Shown here in pieces: positions 1,009 to 9,810 of a stretch of DNA of 30,429 nucleotides. Positions within the stretch are counted from its first letter, which is position 1. Each line of letters begins with the position of its first letter. The notes beneath the pieces were generated by a model, which saw only the letters and a list, made by a program, of their open reading frames with translations, had not been told where the DNA came from and did no database searches. Origin of the DNA: a virus; IMG/VR virus record IMGVR_UViG_3300025669_000138, positions 1 through 30,429 of that record; one strand, 5' to 3'. The position numbers and the translations under genes are program-made.

Positions 1009-1211
1009 CACCGGGCAGAACAAAATGGCAGTGTTTGGCGTGCGGGAAGTCGTGGACGAGCATCAACATCCCGAGTCTTCACCAGATCTGCCAATGCGGG
1101 AACAAACGGATCAAGGCAGTGGTCGCGGCACCTTCGGTCGTGTCCCCCCGTCTCACACTTAACCGATCCCTGAACTGGGGCATGGAACTGCTCCGCGAGG
1201 CCCAAGAATGA
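1005..1211 (+). CDS. Small zinc-ribbon protein
   Basis: This 68-residue protein carries CLAC at residues 10-13 and CQC at 29-31, the spacing of a small zinc ribbon (two Cys knuckles about 16 residues apart). The rest is an unstructured-looking linker and a short C-terminal helix. Such ribbons mediate binding of DNA, RNA or protein. It overlaps the preceding gene by four bases and the radical SAM gene by four bases, so it sits in a tightly coupled cassette. A link to the radical SAM protein is possible from this arrangement but is not shown by sequence. Confidence 0.7.
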   Translation: MTPGRTKWQCLACGKSWTSINIPSLHQICQCGNKRIKAVVAAPSVVSPRLTLNRSLNWGMELLREAQE

Positions 1212-1753
1212 AAACCGCAAGGATAATGGTGACAACCAAGTGCGACAGGGGGTGTAGCTACTGTTGCAACACACCCGAAAACCCGGCGATGCAGTCATGC
1301 ACGACTGTAAAGCGGTTGGGTGATATCCCCGATACGTACGATGCGTATGTGATCACGGGCGGGGAGCCATTTCGGGATAACTGTCATACTGCCAAACACT
1401 CCCGGGACGTAATCCAGCGACTGAACGCATGGCGGGCCAAGCCGGTATACCTATACACATCAGTATACAATACGAGCATACCGTTCCACGCGCTGAGTGG
1501 GATCACGTACACGTTGCACCATCCGTTCACAGATGCAGACAGAAATAGCTTCTGGGCAATGGAACTCTACAATCAGATGAGTGGGGTGAACCGGCCAAAC
1601 ATGCGGCTGATCATAAATGCAGATATACCCGCCCACTTGGTGCCCCTTGTAAATATGACGGCATGGGATACGGCCAAGTATATAAGGTTCGACCCGGACG
1701 GCATGTGCCCGCTCGGTGAGGGTGAGGATCTGTATCTGTTGGAGGGTGAATGA
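1208..1753 (+). CDS. Compact radical SAM protein
   Basis: This 181-residue protein has the radical SAM signature CxxxCxxC near the N-terminus (CDRGCSYC, starting at residue 13), which binds a [4Fe-4S] cluster, and a GGE motif (YVITGGEPF, about residues 49-57) that contacts S-adenosylmethionine. These are the two hallmarks of the AdoMet radical superfamily. It is short for the superfamily, so it probably has a reduced barrel. No C-terminal extra cluster domain is present. Phage radical SAM proteins include QueE-like enzymes of 7-deazaguanine synthesis and activases of class III ribonucleotide reductase, but neither partner gene is in this window. The substrate is therefore unknown. Confidence 0.85.
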   Translation: MKTARIMVTTKCDRGCSYCCNTPENPAMQSCTTVKRLGDIPDTYDAYVITGGEPFRDNCHTAKHSRDVIQRLNAWRAKPVYLYTSVYNTSIPFHALSGITYTLHHPFTDADRNSFWAMELYNQMSGVNRPNMRLIINADIPAHLVPLVNMTAWDTAKYIRFDPDGMCPLGEGEDLYLLEGE

Positions 1754-3866: not shown

Positions 3867-4151
3867 ATGACGCTAGAATATATCAGAACTGTTCGGTATA
3901 TGATCAAATGTTGTTATCACTACTACGTACTTGCCGAGCCGTGTATGGGTGACACTAGCTACGACAAGCTGGTTCATGCTGTGCGGGAGATTGAGGATGC
4001 CGACCTGGGTGAAGTTTTAGCGATGTCCCCCACTCAGAAGATCTGGGGCGACTGCGAGTCGCAGTACCCGGCATGGGCTAAGGAAGAACCAACTGTCGGA
4101 GAGATCGAAGCGGCGTTTGGTATCCTGAATAAGTATATGGAGACGCACTGA
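3867..4151 (+). CDS. Stand-alone domain Ia of NAD-dependent DNA ligase (LigA-like)
   Basis: This 94-residue protein matches the N-terminal domain Ia of bacterial LigA. It has YYVLAEP, then GDTSYDKL and later SPTQ, in the order and spacing of the ligase family (YYVLDEP, DAEYDxL, DSPTQ). By alignment to E. coli LigA it keeps Tyr22, Asp32, Tyr35 and Asp36, which bind the nicotinamide mononucleotide part of NAD; His23 is Tyr here, as in many ligases. The adenylation domain with KxDG is absent from this gene and from the window. It therefore cannot ligate alone and may bind NAD/NMN, pair with another ligase part, or interfere with host ligase. It overlaps the metallophosphoesterase start by one base. 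Confidence 0.75.
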   Translation: MTLEYIRTVRYMIKCCYHYYVLAEPCMGDTSYDKLVHAVREIEDADLGEVLAMSPTQKIWGDCESQYPAWAKEEPTVGEIEAAFGILNKYMETH

Positions 4152-5824
4152 TGGCAAAAGTCTTAGTTCTGGGGGACATACACGAGCCAGCGGCACATCC
4201 GGGCTACATGGCCTTCTGTAAAGATCTGCGTAAGAAGTACAAGACGGATACTACGGTCTTTATTGGCGACGTCGTGGATCATCAGGCCGTCAGCTTCCAC
4301 GCGGCCAACCCGCAGTGCGCCGGTCCAACAGATGAGTACATACTGGCTAAGCAGAAAATCAAGCGGTGGTATAAGGCGTTCCCCAACGCCACTGTAACGG
4401 TGGGTAACCATGACTGCGTAGGTCCCGAGACTGATGTATACGTACAGAAACGCGGTTGGGTGCCTATTCCAGATGTGACCTGTGACGATGCTGTCGCACA
4501 GCTGGATGGTACAGGTCACGTGGTGTTCGGCAAACCCAGCCGGGTACACCACAAGCCTGCCCCAAGTATAATGTACGAGATGTGCACACGTGGGCTGTCC
4601 ATGCGGACTACTGGCAATCATCGGGTACTACACCGTGCCGGGTCCGGGCGGTTTAAGTACACGGAGATGGCAGCGCTATCACAGAAAACCACACGAGTGC
4701 ACATTCCAGTCTGTGGCCCGTCCATGTTGCCGGATGCTGCTGTTTCGGATAGCTCTATCAGATTGGCCGCATGGGCATGTACGGATAGTCACAGGACACC
4801 AGGTGGCCAGTGGGTGTTCTACCAACGGCTGTCTAATGTGGATGTTGTAGAAAACGTACTTAGGGCCAACGGTGTGGAGTACCGGCGGAAGGACAGGAGT
4901 CGAGACATTACACAGATTTGCGGCGTAGTGCTGAAAAAACCGATTGAGGTCGCTTGCGAGATGTACCTAACCAGGAAATCGTCAAAGGTTGTGGACCGCC
5001 TTGTGTCCCCCCCTGGCTCGTGGCCCGAGTGGGTGGACACCCTATCCGACCGACAGTTTAACGTCTTCTTGGACAGCGTTGTTGAAGCTGATGGGACCAG
5101 GCACAAACGAAACCCGTACTCCTGGATGGTCTACAAGGGCGCTGCTTTCCTGGGTAGACTACAAGCGGCCTGTGCAATACACAACCTTCGGTCGTGGGTG
5201 ACTGAATACCGGCCGGGACATTTCCGGTTAAATATACACCTCGCCCGTAAGGTCTTTCGAGTAGATGGGTTCATAAGACACACCGAGGTAATGCCAAATA
5301 CGGACGATGTCTACTGCCTGACTGTTAAACATAGTAATTTCCTTTGTCGCCGTGAGGGCACCAGCTACTTCACCGGCAACTGTCGTGTCATCAGGCTTGC
5401 AGAGTCCGTGAACATCCCATCCAAGTACATCCGCGACTATAACGAGGTGTGGAAGACAAAGACGTGGACATGGGTGGATGAGGTTATCCTTGACGATGTG
5501 TACTACTTCCACGGCACCGGCCGCTCGGGTATGTATCCGGCATTCAACGCGATGAAGGACCTTCTGATGTCAGTTTGCATGGGACACTGCCATAGCCAGA
5601 GCGGTGTTAAGTGGCGGGCAAACCCGAGACAACGTACGTTCGGCTTAGACACCGGCTGCGGGATTGATGTCGACGCCTATCAATTTTCTTACGGAAAACA
5701 CATGAGATCCCGGCCGATTTTATCAGCAGCTGTGGTAGTAGACGGGATGCCGTACCACCATATCATGCCGTGTGGCGTGAAAGAGCGGTACCACAAGAGC
5801 CGTTTCGTGGGGGAGTCAACATGA
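4151..5824 (+). CDS. Calcineurin-like metallophosphoesterase interrupted by an intein
   Basis: The 557-residue precursor contains a 322-residue intein; the spliced product would be about 235 residues, normal for phage metallophosphoesterases. Metal-site motifs are visible: GDIH at residues 8-11, GDVVD at 39-43, GNHD at 85-88 and, after the intein, GHCH at 478-481. The intein sits directly after GNHD, one of the catalytic motifs, so the enzyme must splice to fold correctly. The family hydrolyses phosphomono- or diesters with two metal ions; substrates in phages range from phosphoproteins to cyclic nucleotides and DNA ends, and cannot be chosen here. The gene is coupled to its neighbours on both sides. 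Confidence 0.88.
   Translation: MAKVLVLGDIHEPAAHPGYMAFCKDLRKKYKTDTTVFIGDVVDHQAVSFHAANPQCAGPTDEYILAKQKIKRWYKAFPNATVTVGNHDCVGPETDVYVQKRGWVPIPDVTCDDAVAQLDGTGHVVFGKPSRVHHKPAPSIMYEMCTRGLSMRTTGNHRVLHRAGSGRFKYTEMAALSQKTTRVHIPVCGPSMLPDAAVSDSSIRLAAWACTDSHRTPGGQWVFYQRLSNVDVVENVLRANGVEYRRKDRSRDITQICGVVLKKPIEVACEMYLTRKSSKVVDRLVSPPGSWPEWVDTLSDRQFNVFLDSVVEADGTRHKRNPYSWMVYKGAAFLGRLQAACAIHNLRSWVTEYRPGHFRLNIHLARKVFRVDGFIRHTEVMPNTDDVYCLTVKHSNFLCRREGTSYFTGNCRVIRLAESVNIPSKYIRDYNEVWKTKTWTWVDEVILDDVYYFHGTGRSGMYPAFNAMKDLLMSVCMGHCHSQSGVKWRANPRQRTFGLDTGCGIDVDAYQFSYGKHMRSRPILSAAVVVDGMPYHHIMPCGVKERYHKSRFVGEST
4415..5380 (+). mobile_element. Intein with a DOD (LAGLIDADG) homing endonuclease domain
   Basis: The element covers residues 89-410 of the metallophosphoesterase precursor. 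Block A begins at Cys1 (CVGPETDVYV), block B contains TGNH (TTGNHRVLH), and the C-terminal blocks F/G read VYCLTVKHSNFLC to FTGN, followed by Cys+1. Between them are two DOD-like motifs: LAAWACTDSH (from about 4763) and FLDSVVEADG (about 5066-5095). The second keeps the acidic Asp-Gly pair; the first is degenerate with DS in place of DG, so cutting activity is uncertain. The penultimate residue is Gly rather than the usual His, which is tolerated in some inteins but may slow splicing. Confidence 0.88.
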
Positions 5825-6336
5825 AAATACCACCCCCACCAATACCACCCGTACCTAAACTGCCCCTGTTCGCAGGTGCCACGGAGAAACATCGGAACGA
5901 TCAGCTTGGTGCTGACATCCGGTCCATGTTTGACGACCTGCTGCGCGTGACATACGTACCGGCTTGGCAGGAGATGCTGATCAAGTTCAAGGGCGCGGTC
6001 AACCCGGGCGGCACGTTTGACCCGCAGCGGTTACCGTATCAGGCCGCGGGTCCGAACCTGGCAGGGGACAAGGGAGCGGGCCGACTGCCATCGCTGGCCT
6101 GCCTGTACACTCGGCTGTCGTGGATTATCCAGCTGTACTGGCGATTGGTTCTGACCGGCGACGGGAACGAAGGGCTCATCAGGCAGTACATGGCTGAGAT
6201 AGAGATTATGTTTGAACTCAGGGATGAGCGGGGCAACAGGTTGAAGCTGCAGCAAATTTTATCGCGGTGCTTTATCGAGGGTGATATACGCCATGGCTTC
6301 TGGATTTCGATACCGGAGGTGCCGAGTGGATCTTGA
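5821..6336 (+). CDS. Hypothetical protein with PPVP-rich N-terminus, 171 residues
   Basis: I do not recognise this protein. The ATG at 5821 overlaps the previous stop by four bases, and GGGGGAG lies just upstream. It begins with a proline-rich segment (MKIPPPPIPPVPKLP) that repeats the PPVP string seen in other genes of this block. The remainder is mostly helical and amphipathic without catalytic motifs. The end overlaps the polymerase start by 11 bases. Placement immediately upstream of the polymerase suggests a replication accessory protein, which is inference from position and from the shared proline motif. Confidence 0.7.
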   Translation: MKIPPPPIPPVPKLPLFAGATEKHRNDQLGADIRSMFDDLLRVTYVPAWQEMLIKFKGAVNPGGTFDPQRLPYQAAGPNLAGDKGAGRLPSLACLYTRLSWIIQLYWRLVLTGDGNEGLIRQYMAEIEIMFELRDERGNRLKLQQILSRCFIEGDIRHGFWISIPEVPSGS

Positions 6337-9274
6337 ACCCTACCAACAAGTTCTAGCCAAAGCCGGGTTCCCAACTGATGTATTGGTGTTAGACTGGGAA
6401 TCTTACTTTGCCGCGGACTACAACCTACGCCAGAAGCATATGGACATCCCACAGTATGTCGGCGACGCGCGGTTTGAAATCACGGGGCTTGGCCACGCCA
6501 CGCACGGGCTGGCGCGGGTAGGGTTCGAGCGACCCGGTAGCGTTAAGAGCTACCTGCTATACCTGCAGGATGCTTTTGGTGAGAACCTCGAACGTTGCAC
6601 AGTGGTAGGTCACAACCTGTTTTTCGACGCCCTGGTTCTGCGTGAGAAGTACGGCATCACGCCGCCATACACTGTCGACACCCGCGATCTGTCCCGGCAC
6701 CTGGACGCAAGGGACCATCACGACCTGGACCATCTAGCTAAGAAGTACGGGGCCCCGACGCCGAAGGGTGACACCGATCAGTTCAAGGGATTGCACGCGG
6801 CGGACATGTCAGAGTATGACCGGGGGGCCCTGTCCGAGTACTGCCGCAACGACATCGACATCACCGCGTTTCTGCTCAAGAAGCTGCTGCCACTGATCAC
6901 CCGACCCGAGATCGAGTTACGGCTGGCAGCCCAGACGCTGCGTATGTTCCTGGTGCCGAGCATCGTTGTCGACACCGAGCTTGGCGAGCGGCTTGTCACG
7001 GAGATGAGCGATCAGGTCGGCAAGGTGATCGAAGCTACGCATCAGCACGGTATCCTATCGTGTCAGCCGCCGCGATTCTTGAAGCGGTCCAGCAGACCCC
7101 CGGTGATCAGGCAGATAACGACTGAGGATATATCAAAGAACGCCTTACTGATCAACCTATTCAATCAGGTCCTGCCCGAGGGCGAGACAGTGCCTATGAA
7201 GGAGGGCAAGAAAGAGATGATCCCCGCGTTCTCCAAGGTGGACGACGGGTTCAAGTGGTTATTGAATCACCCGGTCCCCGCCGTACGGGCACTGGCTGAG
7301 GCCCGACTGGCTATCAAGTCATGGCCCAGCCATGTCAAGCGGGTGCAGCGTATCATGGCCCAGTCGCGGTGCCGGGGTGGGCTGCTTGGTATACCACTCA
7401 ACTACTATGGGGGGCACCTGGGTAGGTGGAGTGGTGCGGGAGGGATCAACGCTCAGAACTTCGGGGCCCGTGACGTTCACGAACTCATTAAGGAAGTGGG
7501 CAAGATGCTGCTTGCACCCCCTGGCTACCTGATGGGGGGTGGTGATCTTAAACAGATCGAAGCCCGCAAGGTTGCATGGCTATCAGGACAGACAGATCTG
7601 GTGGATGCGTTCGCTGCGGGTACTGATATCTATTCTGAGTTTGCCCAGGAGCACATCTTCCATGAGGAAACACACGACCCAACCAAGGAAGAGTGGGCAT
7701 CCAACCCGGAACTGGCCAAGCAACTATCTACCCGCCGTAGTTTTGGGAAGATGACAATTTTAGCTTGCCTGGCCGCAGGGTCTCCGGTACTAACAGATTC
7801 TGGGTATAAGGCAATCGAGGCAATAACCAAAGACGACCTGCTGTGGGACGGGGTAGAATATGTGAGCCACGGCGGTGTGGTGTGTAGGGGGGTAAAGGCA
7901 TGTGTAAATCTACAGGGCATATGGATAACACCAGATCACGAGATCCTAACAGACCAAGGGTGGTGCCTGGCGCACAGCCTAAGCATCAGCAGCCCAGCAT
8001 CGGAAGTGTGTACGGAGAGTTTACTGTCACGGCGGTTGTATATGGCCCGCGGGGCGGGATTAAGTCCGTGGAATGCCGCTGCTCCTGTGGTCGAACAGTA
8101 TCTCCGCACCGCGACAGCCTTATCGCCGGGAGCAGTACACGTTGTAACGTCTGTGCTAAAATTAAATCTGGCGTCTCTCAATCAATTGCTCCAGAGATAC
8201 CCGCAGCACACAGGAAACGATTACGCAACCGGATTTCTGCGATCATTAGCAGGTGTGAAAGACACAAACATAAACGATATGGCGGAAGAGGTGTCCGAGT
8301 GTGGCCTGTGTGGGTCACGGATAGAGCAGCTTTTCTTAGGTATCTGGTCACTATCCCTGGATGGGATGACCGAAGCCTTGAAATCGACCGCGTTAATAAC
8401 GATGCGGGATACAGGCCGGGAAATCTTCGGTTTGCAACACGATCAGAACAAATGCACAACACATGTAGAACCAGAAAAGATGGACACGGAACAACAAGCG
8501 TGTGTCTTGAGTGCGGGGGACAATTCACACGTAAACAAGCGGGACAGTCCCTATGTTCCAAGCGATGCGCTGGAAAATCATCTCACGTTCGATATCTTGG
8601 AAGCCGGTCCCCAGCACCGGTATCAAGCGGGACATGTGATCGTAGCTAACTGCGGATTTGGGATGGGTGGGCCAACATTCCACACGCGATGCCGGCAGGA
8701 TAAGCGTCTACGACCCCTGTTCGATGCGGGCACCTATGATCTATCGTTCTGCATCAAGCTGATCAAACTGTACCGCAACAGGTACACAAAAATAGTAGCG
8801 TTCTGGGGTGAATTGGAGCGGGCATATAAGTTCGTCACCAAGTACAAAGATCAGACTACGACGGTCAGCCACAACGGGCACGAGCTTGTGTTTTTCAATC
8901 AGGATGATACTACTATTATCGTGTTGCCGTCCGGTAGGTGTATATTCTACCCGATGGCACGTGTGTCAAGTGACGGTGACGCGTCTTACACAAGCGGTGG
9001 AACAAAGTACTACATCTATGGCGGCAAAAATTGTGAAAACGTAGTGCAGGCCAGCGCCCGCGATGTGTTCGGAGAGGGACTGTTGCGACTGGAGGACGAT
9101 GGGTTCCCGGTGCTGTTCTCCGTGCATGATCAAGCTATCACGCTGATACCAGATGACGACCGGGCTGAGGCCCAGTTAGCGAGGATGCATGCGATACAGA
9201 TTGTAGTACCGGACTGGGCAGGCGGGCTTCCAATTGCAGTGGAGGGCCGATTATGCGACCGATTCGAGAAGTAA
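6326..9274 (+). CDS. Family A DNA polymerase with 3'-5' exonuclease, interrupted by an intein
   Basis: The spliced product would be about 687 residues, close to T7 DNA polymerase. GTG 6326 is preferred as start because GGAGG lies six bases upstream; GTG 6281 and ATG 6293 are weaker. Exonuclease motifs: DWES (residues 23-26), GHNLFFD (95-101) and YCRNDID (172-178). Polymerase motif A is GDLKQIEAR (Asp 407). Motif B, the O-helix, is RSFGKMTILA, then after the intein CGFG; the position equal to E. coli Phe762 is Leu. Motif C is HDQ (934-936) instead of the usual HDE. The intein occupies residues 481-775. The gene copies the phage genome together with the primase-helicase at 14973. Confidence 0.95.
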   Translation: MDLEPYQQVLAKAGFPTDVLVLDWESYFAADYNLRQKHMDIPQYVGDARFEITGLGHATHGLARVGFERPGSVKSYLLYLQDAFGENLERCTVVGHNLFFDALVLREKYGITPPYTVDTRDLSRHLDARDHHDLDHLAKKYGAPTPKGDTDQFKGLHAADMSEYDRGALSEYCRNDIDITAFLLKKLLPLITRPEIELRLAAQTLRMFLVPSIVVDTELGERLVTEMSDQVGKVIEATHQHGILSCQPPRFLKRSSRPPVIRQITTEDISKNALLINLFNQVLPEGETVPMKEGKKEMIPAFSKVDDGFKWLLNHPVPAVRALAEARLAIKSWPSHVKRVQRIMAQSRCRGGLLGIPLNYYGGHLGRWSGAGGINAQNFGARDVHELIKEVGKMLLAPPGYLMGGGDLKQIEARKVAWLSGQTDLVDAFAAGTDIYSEFAQEHIFHEETHDPTKEEWASNPELAKQLSTRRSFGKMTILACLAAGSPVLTDSGYKAIEAITKDDLLWDGVEYVSHGGVVCRGVKACVNLQGIWITPDHEILTDQGWCLAHSLSISSPASEVCTESLLSRRLYMARGAGLSPWNAAAPVVEQYLRTATALSPGAVHVVTSVLKLNLASLNQLLQRYPQHTGNDYATGFLRSLAGVKDTNINDMAEEVSECGLCGSRIEQLFLGIWSLSLDGMTEALKSTALITMRDTGREIFGLQHDQNKCTTHVEPEKMDTEQQACVLSAGDNSHVNKRDSPYVPSDALENHLTFDILEAGPQHRYQAGHVIVANCGFGMGGPTFHTRCRQDKRLRPLFDAGTYDLSFCIKLIKLYRNRYTKIVAFWGELERAYKFVTKYKDQTTTVSHNGHELVFFNQDDTTIIVLPSGRCIFYPMARVSSDGDASYTSGGTKYYIYGGKNCENVVQASARDVFGEGLLRLEDDGFPVLFSVHDQAITLIPDDDRAEAQLARMHAIQIVVPDWAGGLPIAVEGRLCDRFEK
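7766..8650 (+). mobile_element. Intein in the O-helix of the DNA polymerase
   Basis: The 295-residue element starts at Cys1 (CLAAGSPVLTDSG, block A), has block B with TPDH (WITPDHEILT) and ends with DILEAGPQHRYQAGHVIVAN (blocks F and G), followed by Cys+1. It interrupts the nucleotide-binding O-helix between the positions equivalent to E. coli 763 and 764. The region between blocks B and F does not resemble any known endonuclease in the polymerase frame; instead the same DNA encodes an HNH enzyme in another frame (7900-8649). The penultimate residue is Ala, not the common His. Splicing must occur for the polymerase to be active. Confidence 0.9.
7900..8649 (+). CDS. HNH homing endonuclease nested out of frame inside the polymerase intein
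   Basis: This 249-residue frame overlaps the intein entirely but is read in a different phase. From about residue 32 it matches phage HNH enzymes: an N-terminal zinc module (GEFTVTAVVYG, CRCSCG, CNVC), then RYGGRGV, an FLRYL helix, and the HNH core EIDRVNNDAGYRPGN with FATRSEQMHN. A second Cys cluster follows (CLECGGQF, CSKRC). AGGGGGG at 7886-7892 lies seven bases before the ATG, so it may be translated on its own; ATG 7921 is an alternative start. The TAA stop (8647-8649) overlaps the intein's terminal Asn codon. Because this frame carries the recognisable homology, it is the constrained one, and the intein frame is the passenger over this stretch. Confidence 0.82.
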   Translation: MCKSTGHMDNTRSRDPNRPRVVPGAQPKHQQPSIGSVYGEFTVTAVVYGPRGGIKSVECRCSCGRTVSPHRDSLIAGSSTRCNVCAKIKSGVSQSIAPEIPAAHRKRLRNRISAIISRCERHKHKRYGGRGVRVWPVWVTDRAAFLRYLVTIPGWDDRSLEIDRVNNDAGYRPGNLRFATRSEQMHNTCRTRKDGHGTTSVCLECGGQFTRKQAGQSLCSKRCAGKSSHVRYLGSRSPAPVSSGTCDRS

Positions 9275-9810
9275 GGGAAATACCGGGGTTCCCAGGGTAC
9301 TCTATTACTGAGGGGGGTTCCATATGGAGCGGGCCGAGGCAGAATGCACGTGGGCGCACTCTCCGGGGCAGGTGGTTGAGGCCAGCTTTACAAATTAGGG
9401 GTTACCTAAAAGTATCATTATGCAGGGACAGTTGTGCGTATGATAGATATATCCACCGCCTCATTCTCGAAACCTACGTGGGCTCGTGTCCAGACGGTAT
9501 GGAGGCGTGTCATAACAATGGTGATAAGTTAGATAACAGGTTAGAGAATCTGAGGTGGGATACACGATCATCAAATAACCTGGATACTGTTAGGCATGGG
9601 AACTGCCCGCTCCTTGCCTCAAATTTCCCGCATGCTCAAGGGGAAAACCACAGCAGGGCTAAGCTAACTGAACAGCAAGTGCGACAGATTATCTACACTT
9701 ACGGGACTGGCTTGTTTACCCAGAAGAAAATTGGGGAGCAATACGGGGTGTCTGACGCGACGATAAACGGCATCACCCTAAAGAAAACATGGAAACACCT
9801 ATGGCAATAG
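9253..9810 (+). CDS. Free-standing NUMOD4-HNH homing endonuclease
   Basis: This 185-residue protein has a NUMOD4 segment (EIPGFPGYSITEGG, residues 9-22), an HNH nuclease core (IHRLILETYVG, then EACHNNGDKLDNRLENLRWDT, given here in part as ACHNNGDKLDNRLENLRW) and a C-terminal helix-turn-helix (KIGEQYGVSDATINGI, then KTWKHLWQ). This is the standard layout of phage HNH homing enzymes. The start lies inside the last 22 bases of the polymerase gene and the end overlaps the next gene's start (ATGGCA at 9801). It looks more AT-rich than its neighbours, as expected for an insertion. The remnant at 3097 is its relative. It probably cuts intein-less or endonuclease-less polymerase regions of rival phages. 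Confidence 0.9.
   Translation: MRPIREVREIPGFPGYSITEGGSIWSGPRQNARGRTLRGRWLRPALQIRGYLKVSLCRDSCAYDRYIHRLILETYVGSCPDGMEACHNNGDKLDNRLENLRWDTRSSNNLDTVRHGNCPLLASNFPHAQGENHSRAKLTEQQVRQIIYTYGTGLFTQKKIGEQYGVSDATINGITLKKTWKHLWQ

Follow-up and report, generated by a model that had tools for sequence, protein, structure and literature searches.

What a phage would do with a radical SAM enzyme of 181 residues is the question raised by the gene at positions 1208-1753 (+ strand) of the window, by which we mean the complete 30,429-base virus record analysed here, a stretch of 30.4 kb whose ORFs run off both ends. The ORF starts with ATG, and a sequence-only reading had picked it out by its CxxxCxxC and GGE motifs, which are indeed all in place. 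CDRGCSYCC supplies C12, C16 and C19 of the cluster motif and, directly after it, a fourth cysteine, C20; GGE corresponds to G51-G52-E53 and is part of ITGGEP at residues 49-54. Among 20,000 shuffles of the protein's own residues, none placed CxxxCxxC within residues 1-60 and GGE no more than 60 residues further on. Additional signature residues are H104, R133, W153, C167-P168 and E173. With CxxxCxxC and GGE on a predicted β/α barrel, the protein falls into the radical SAM superfamily, and this class assignment is well supported by its sequence motifs.

The gene product belongs to PHROG 31524, to whose profile it shows a full-length match (residues 2-176 of 181, E 8.1e-19); all 15 aligned members match the profile, with a best E of 1.2e-68. 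This family already exists, carrying no functional annotation, and one of its members, gp56 of crAss001, is already annotated as HxsC-like. Our literature search returned no paper on PHROG 31524; the accessible part of PMC10773633 links gp_34 of another phage to quorum sensing, and the word 'radical' does not occur in the accessible parts of PMC6235969, PMC10136315 and PMC10569736. In Pfam, 10 of the 15 members match Radical_SAM and 7 match Fer4_12, no SPASM match is listed across the 15, and the window protein itself lacks a Radical_SAM match at E <= 1.

Alignment A3 of the 15 relatives (15 rows) contains 24 invariant positions: R5, V8, T9, C12, C16, C19, C20, N21, Y44, I49, T50, G51, G52, E53, P54, T84, G98, H104, R133, L134, W153, C167, P168 and E173. 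When two distant sequences, a megaphage member and the diverged L035, are added to give a set of 17, the residues C12, C16, C19, C20, N21, TGGEP, G98, R133, L134, W153 and P168 are retained throughout; C167, H104 and E173 are kept in 16 and lost only in L035, which has Asp at C167 and Lys at H104. The earlier impression of a protein with 'little more' than its motifs has to be revised in view of the invariant positions and the barrel order of the model. 'Minimal' is likewise inappropriate, as E. coli NrdG is shorter (154 aa) and the family signature, CxxxCxxCCN ... ITGGEP ... H ... RL ... W ... CPxxxxE, is well defined. Far from being a one-off, the product of 1208-1753 truly belongs to a family of phage enzymes that is as yet uncharacterised.

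A tblastn search at E <= 0.01 detected the family in 32 of 50,697 phage records, namely 28 Bacteroides phages, one Phocaeicola phage, one Kehishuvirus and, twice, the cr112_1 genome, and in none of 72,556 plasmids with the L011 relative as query. A Lachnospiraceae query matched 12 phage records, among which are the megaphage LR756501, of 735 kb, and LR756503, a twin of that record. Scans of viral contigs provided the loci L002, L006-L018, L024-L031 and L050-L053, many of them on the same contigs and L053 being rejected, and two further scans found no relative. Five loci, L019-L023, came from genome contigs: L019 from a Candidatus Aegiribacteria MAG, with seven neighbouring gene families in common with the window phage, L020 from a Lachnospiraceae genome, and L021-L023 from Bacteroidaceae. 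Sampling of whole genomes gave 1/201, 3/348, 1/395 and 1/398 carriers at E <= 1e-10 and 1/42 at E <= 1e-8; each of these counts includes the centre genome, picked as a carrier, with only two new carriers overall, and in two of the samplings only the 8 best first-look candidates per genome were scored. Genes around L022 recur at the phage locus L011, the surroundings of L021 look similar, and L020 adjoins a presumably phage-type gene, DUF5131. We read the cellular copies as apparent prophages, more tentatively so for L023, L033 and L035. The isolated phages crAss001 and BI-TP1 carry the family, which so far has been found in phages and apparent prophages and is little-noticed.

The rejected locus L053 is a QueC-radical SAM fusion devoid of CC-N, GGE and the C-terminal motif, and was left uncounted. 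At 5422-7601 it joins a QueC-like PP-loop domain to a radical SAM domain in which GRE replaces GGE, and it is directly followed by a 291-aa protein with no Pfam match that, by eye, we take to resemble a TGT/DpdA-type enzyme.

Within the window, 4-nt overlaps link the ORFs 787-1008, 1005-1211, 1208-1753 and 1750-2016, each with the next. The upstream ORF (1005-1211, + strand, 68 aa) overlaps the radical SAM start and contains CxxC...CxC. The overlap with a zinc ribbon gene claimed earlier thus stands, but HMM scores (best Pfam E 0.33; NCBIfam Elf1 E 0.05) leave the product only zinc-ribbon-like, lacking strong support from any curated model, and the neighbour is inconstant across relatives. The downstream ORF (1750-2016, + strand, 88 aa), which overlaps the radical SAM stop, has no Pfam match at E <= 0.05; by eye, counterparts occur in L002 (4180-4473) and L019 (8961-9227). 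Genes further downstream in the window code for a 5'-nucleotidase-like protein, a metallophosphoesterase, a family A DNA polymerase and a DNA methylase, together with a PD-(D/E)XK exonuclease, a Sak4-like protein, a primase and a RecG-like helicase, and because of these replication and recombination genes we place the 1208-1753 gene on the replication side. The designation 'early' describes its position in the window only.

Some of these downstream genes appear to be interrupted. A probable intein of 322 aa (4415-5380) lies inside the metallophosphoesterase ORF 4151-5824, directly after the GNHD motif (..VGNHD|C ... TGN|CRVIRL..), and the L002 homologue (6353-7054) reads GNHDARVIRL and has no intein. 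The DNA polymerase ORF 6281-9274 codes for 997 aa versus 692 aa in L019 and probably also contains an intein: polymerase profiles cover 30-497 and 826-997, separated by a stretch with an endonuclease-like match; the 1287-aa polymerase ORF of L002 has two inteins by appearance.

No gene family is common to the neighbourhoods of all lineages, and since these neighbourhoods differ between lineages, the context names no substrate. In 6 of 16 loci the gene directly upstream of the radical SAM gene codes for <150 aa and carries two C-x(1,2)-C motifs, versus 16 of 311 background genes, a nominal binomial result of 9e-5 for loci that are related and not independent. Of the 17 loci given, L015 was uncounted, having no usable gene, and L010, with no upstream gene, was scored as a miss. 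One of the six neighbours is 883 bp away, their ribbon sequences differ by eye, and the nearest relative, L002, has no zinc-ribbon-like gene upstream; a partnership between this gene and the radical SAM enzyme is a lead only. Other neighbours are confined to particular lineages. In the L011/L022 lineage the adjoining gene is annotated as a DNA methyltransferase in BI-TP1, and DNA-methylase neighbours occur in some lineages only, as does an ASCH gene (annotated in BI-TP1; by eye in L008 and L025). A metallo-β-lactamase-fold gene lies upstream in L050 (by eye) and L051 (Pfam), and in L020 a DUF5131 gene (8540-9322, Pfam E 5e-51), presumably of phage type, starts 2 nt after the radical SAM gene ends. 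A Band-7 (SPFH) lipoprotein-like gene is found at most 1.5 kb away in L011, L020, L022 and L028 (three lineages); as a constant neighbour it was dropped, PF01145 being present in only 4 of 13 records, 3 of them over the cut-off. The context suits an early, possibly nucleic-acid-linked role.

AlphaFold modelled the window protein with a pLDDT of 83.4 and a pTM of 0.81, and the crAss001 homologue gave the better model (pLDDT 92.2, pTM 0.88). In the window model, strands and helices succeed one another as they do in a radical-SAM barrel. According to the DSSP strings, GGE, T84 and H104 lie where core strands 2, 3 and 4 end or immediately beyond, and the loop that follows strand 6 contains C167. 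Radical-SAM barrels have their active site on the strand-end side that bears such loops. From the strand order only, we infer that C167 would lie in the active site; the mean pLDDT of block 161-170 is 65 in the window model, where the C167 loop is the least certain part apart from the last residue (block 11-20 is similar at 64), and 82 in the crAss001 model, in which the C-terminal cysteine is C165.

At Foldseek E <= 0.001 the window model retrieves no solved structure, and from viral structures a 179-aa unnamed viral protein (2.1e-6) and a radical SAM protein (3.2e-4). Its VIA-align Z scores are close to ties (viperin 9.5, EpeE 9.5, NifB 9.2, QueE 9.0). Viperins or viperin-like proteins account for each of the 17 Foldseek matches that the crAss001 model has at E <= 0.001 (best 2.6e-5), and for this model VIA-align ranks EpeE top (Z 11.1, rmsd 3.1, 154 residues aligned), followed by viperin-like 9.7, BtrN 9.6, QueE 9.2, ChlB 9.2 and PflA 9.0; the VIA-align lists leave out families ranked low by Foldseek, and absence there is no proof. 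An EpeE C223A structure is among the structural matches. The predicted models thus match known radical-SAM structures moderately, with EpeE and viperin nearest, and a shared fold is no demonstration of function.

A strong match to QueE or NrdG would have refuted the sequence-only reading; the matches to both are weak and cover no more than the N-terminal part. In NCBIfam the window protein has weak, N-terminal matches to HxsC (20.4 bits, cut-off 267.9), NrdG2 (14.2, cut-off 131.15) and MoaA (13.5, cut-off 325.25), the NrdG model TIGR02491 is not listed for it, and neither is any QueE model at E <= 10. Over the 15 members, HxsC is matched by 14 (best E 1.9e-8), MoaA by 12 (8.1e-4), NrdG2 by 7 (1e-4), viperin by 5 (0.0091), TIGR02491 by 3 (0.0014), QueE-gams by 2 (0.0037) and QueE_Clost by 1. 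In PHROGs, 5 of the 15 match the QueE-like phrog_2076 (best 0.027) and 4 match phrog_626, the anaerobic ribonucleotide reductase small subunit (best 1.2e-4). Aligned by hhalign to single E. coli proteins, the family reaches probabilities of 81% for QueE (40 columns), 90% for NrdG (71 columns) and 89% for MoaA (49 columns), and 7% for PflA. PflA was rejected on this value, and MoaA because its alignment is short and N-terminal.

Partner genes were looked for in 13 phage records with a family member, including the window; several of these records are fragments. NrdD occurs in only one of them, that of the L010 phage, where it stands beside a 162-aa NrdG3-like protein (E 8e-44; its 149.1 bits fall slightly short of the 151.7-bit cut-off) that is separate from the small radical SAM enzyme; a host NrdD could also serve as partner. 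QueC is found in none of the 13. In the window no NrdD or QueC match was detected, in line with the earlier statement that it holds no queuosine or ribonucleotide reductase partner; such absence is weak evidence in a record of this length that is open at both ends. The ribonucleotide reductase of crAss001 has a Ribonuc_red_lgC barrel, and the L006 record (102,679 bases, the same length as crAss001) has no NRDD match. A Bacteroides oleiciplenus genome with a family member possesses its own NrdG. The locus of a phage NrdD with its adjoining NrdG3-like activase is L046 (2072-4802), whose record likewise holds a PHROG 31524 protein. NrdG is unlikely because NrdD is absent from 12 of the 13 records and the thirteenth has its own NrdG3-like neighbour, and QueE because QueC is missing from all 13 and the model matches are weak; the 1208-1753 product is most probably neither.

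We therefore favour, at about an even chance for all parts jointly, a stand-alone radical SAM enzyme of PHROG 31524 that abstracts hydrogen by a radical, involves C167 and is neither NrdG nor QueE. The gene would encode an authentic, phage-borne enzyme beside replication and recombination genes. Judging from the motifs, C12, C16 and C19 would bind a [4Fe-4S] cluster, GGE would help to hold S-adenosylmethionine, and reduction would cleave this cofactor to a 5'-deoxyadenosyl radical; such cleavage followed by hydrogen abstraction is standard for the radical SAM superfamily. The radical would act at the open top of the short barrel and take hydrogen from a substrate there, no SPASM or other auxiliary-cluster domain having been found in the protein. 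The nearly invariant C167 most likely participates, for example by returning a hydrogen atom; active-site cysteines are the hydrogen donors in EpeE and spore photoproduct lyase. That L035 has Asp at the C167 position and Lys at H104 weakens the case for a catalytic role. Since the barrel is uncapped and the protein has 181 residues, a macromolecule (protein, peptide or nucleic acid) is mildly favoured as substrate over a small metabolite. The chemistry may be new, as was suggested earlier. We offer more tentatively, and with some doubt, the idea that PHROG 31524 is a separate phage-borne subgroup with a reaction unlike that of any characterised family, in which the CC-N loop and the C-terminal Cys perform hydrogen transfer such as epimerisation on a macromolecule of the host or the phage while anaerobic bacteria are being infected, sometimes with the zinc-ribbon-like protein as partner or target.

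Other readings have to be weighed against this proposal. That the gene is a degenerate, non-functional remnant, as the shortness of the protein and its missing Pfam match might suggest, is scarcely credible: the cluster and GGE residues are kept in all 17 members, the ORF is intact in the loci read except L015, where it runs to the contig end, and dN between the window and L002 genes is 0.35 with synonymous sites saturated. A glycyl-radical-enzyme activase of the NrdG or PflA type, with NrdD or some other enzyme of the host as its target, would agree with the small uncapped barrel, with the hhalign, NrdG2 and phrog_626 matches, and with Bacteroides and Phocaeicola, which are anaerobes, as hosts of the isolated phages. 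Yet the only NrdD among the records is accompanied by an NrdG3-like neighbour of its own as well as by the small enzyme, NrdG2 attains a fraction of its cut-off for the window protein, PflA is hardly recognized, and the B. oleiciplenus carrier has its own NrdG, which makes this activity very unlikely.

A RiPP-type enzyme that matures a small peptide, either HxsC-like or an epimerase of the EpeE/YydG kind, could explain why HxsC (TIGR03977) is the commonest NCBIfam match, why EpeE heads the VIA-align list for the crAss001 model by 1.4 over the next family and draws level with viperin when the window model is used, and why gp56 received its annotation. We nevertheless judge it rather unlikely, as HxsC scores 20.4 bits against a cut-off of 267.9 in the two members checked and covers residues 4-56 and 6-63 only, three His-Xaa-Ser units in a row occur in none of 3,793 mechanical ORFs from 17 loci, no small ORF adjoins the enzyme constantly across lineages, and SPASM is unmatched. 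Modification of a nucleotide or nucleic acid by a viperin-like or new enzyme, for host takeover or genome modification, draws on the fact that several lineages carry the gene close to others for replication, recombination or DNA methylation and on the viperin-like Foldseek matches of the crAss001 model. Moreover, in a comparison with sequences of solved structures, the viperin-like 9dfn extends furthest (profile positions 9-154 of 177, E 0.0023), ahead of MoaA (4-66) and YydG (2-108, E 0.24). Viperin keeps its CTP-binding lysine at the position after the equivalent of W153, but in A3 this position is taken by D, N, K, Q or T. Only a third of the members match the viperin NCBIfam model, which is absent from the window protein's matches at E <= 10; VIA-align places EpeE above viperin for the crAss001 model, and the window model lacks any Foldseek match to a solved structure at E <= 0.001; we regard this reading, too, as improbable.

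Returning to the proposed stand-alone enzyme of PHROG 31524, its occurrence in isolated phages of gut bacteria opens the reaction to study in laboratory phages, and its residue signature can be used to assign further members. If the reaction is new, it adds a phage-encoded radical modification; if it is not, the HxsC-like annotation still deserves correction. Compared with known systems, the family shares with NrdG (TIGR02491, TIGR02826) a small radical SAM domain and, with the E. coli protein, C-x3-C-x2-C followed by one residue and Asn; unlike NrdG, it has a CPxxxxE tail, and one phage encodes an NrdG3-like protein in addition to it. With QueE it has in common a compact radical SAM domain, at VIA-align Z scores of 9.0 and 9.2, and it differs in its weak model matches, the 40-column hhalign alignment and the missing QueC partner in 13 records. 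The likeness to HxsC (TIGR03977) lies in the N-terminal cluster and GGE part, whereas that model spans 292 residues compared with 181 in the window protein, and no His-Xaa-Ser peptide was found nearby. Viperin and EpeE (YydG) are the nearest solved folds to the crAss001 model, but identity over the aligned residues is 7-17% and the solved chains are longer (253-323 residues). crAss001 gp56 differs from the window protein in its neighbours and in sequence, with 33% identity in alignment A1 and 30% in A3, and equals it in size, in signature residues and in a match over the full length.
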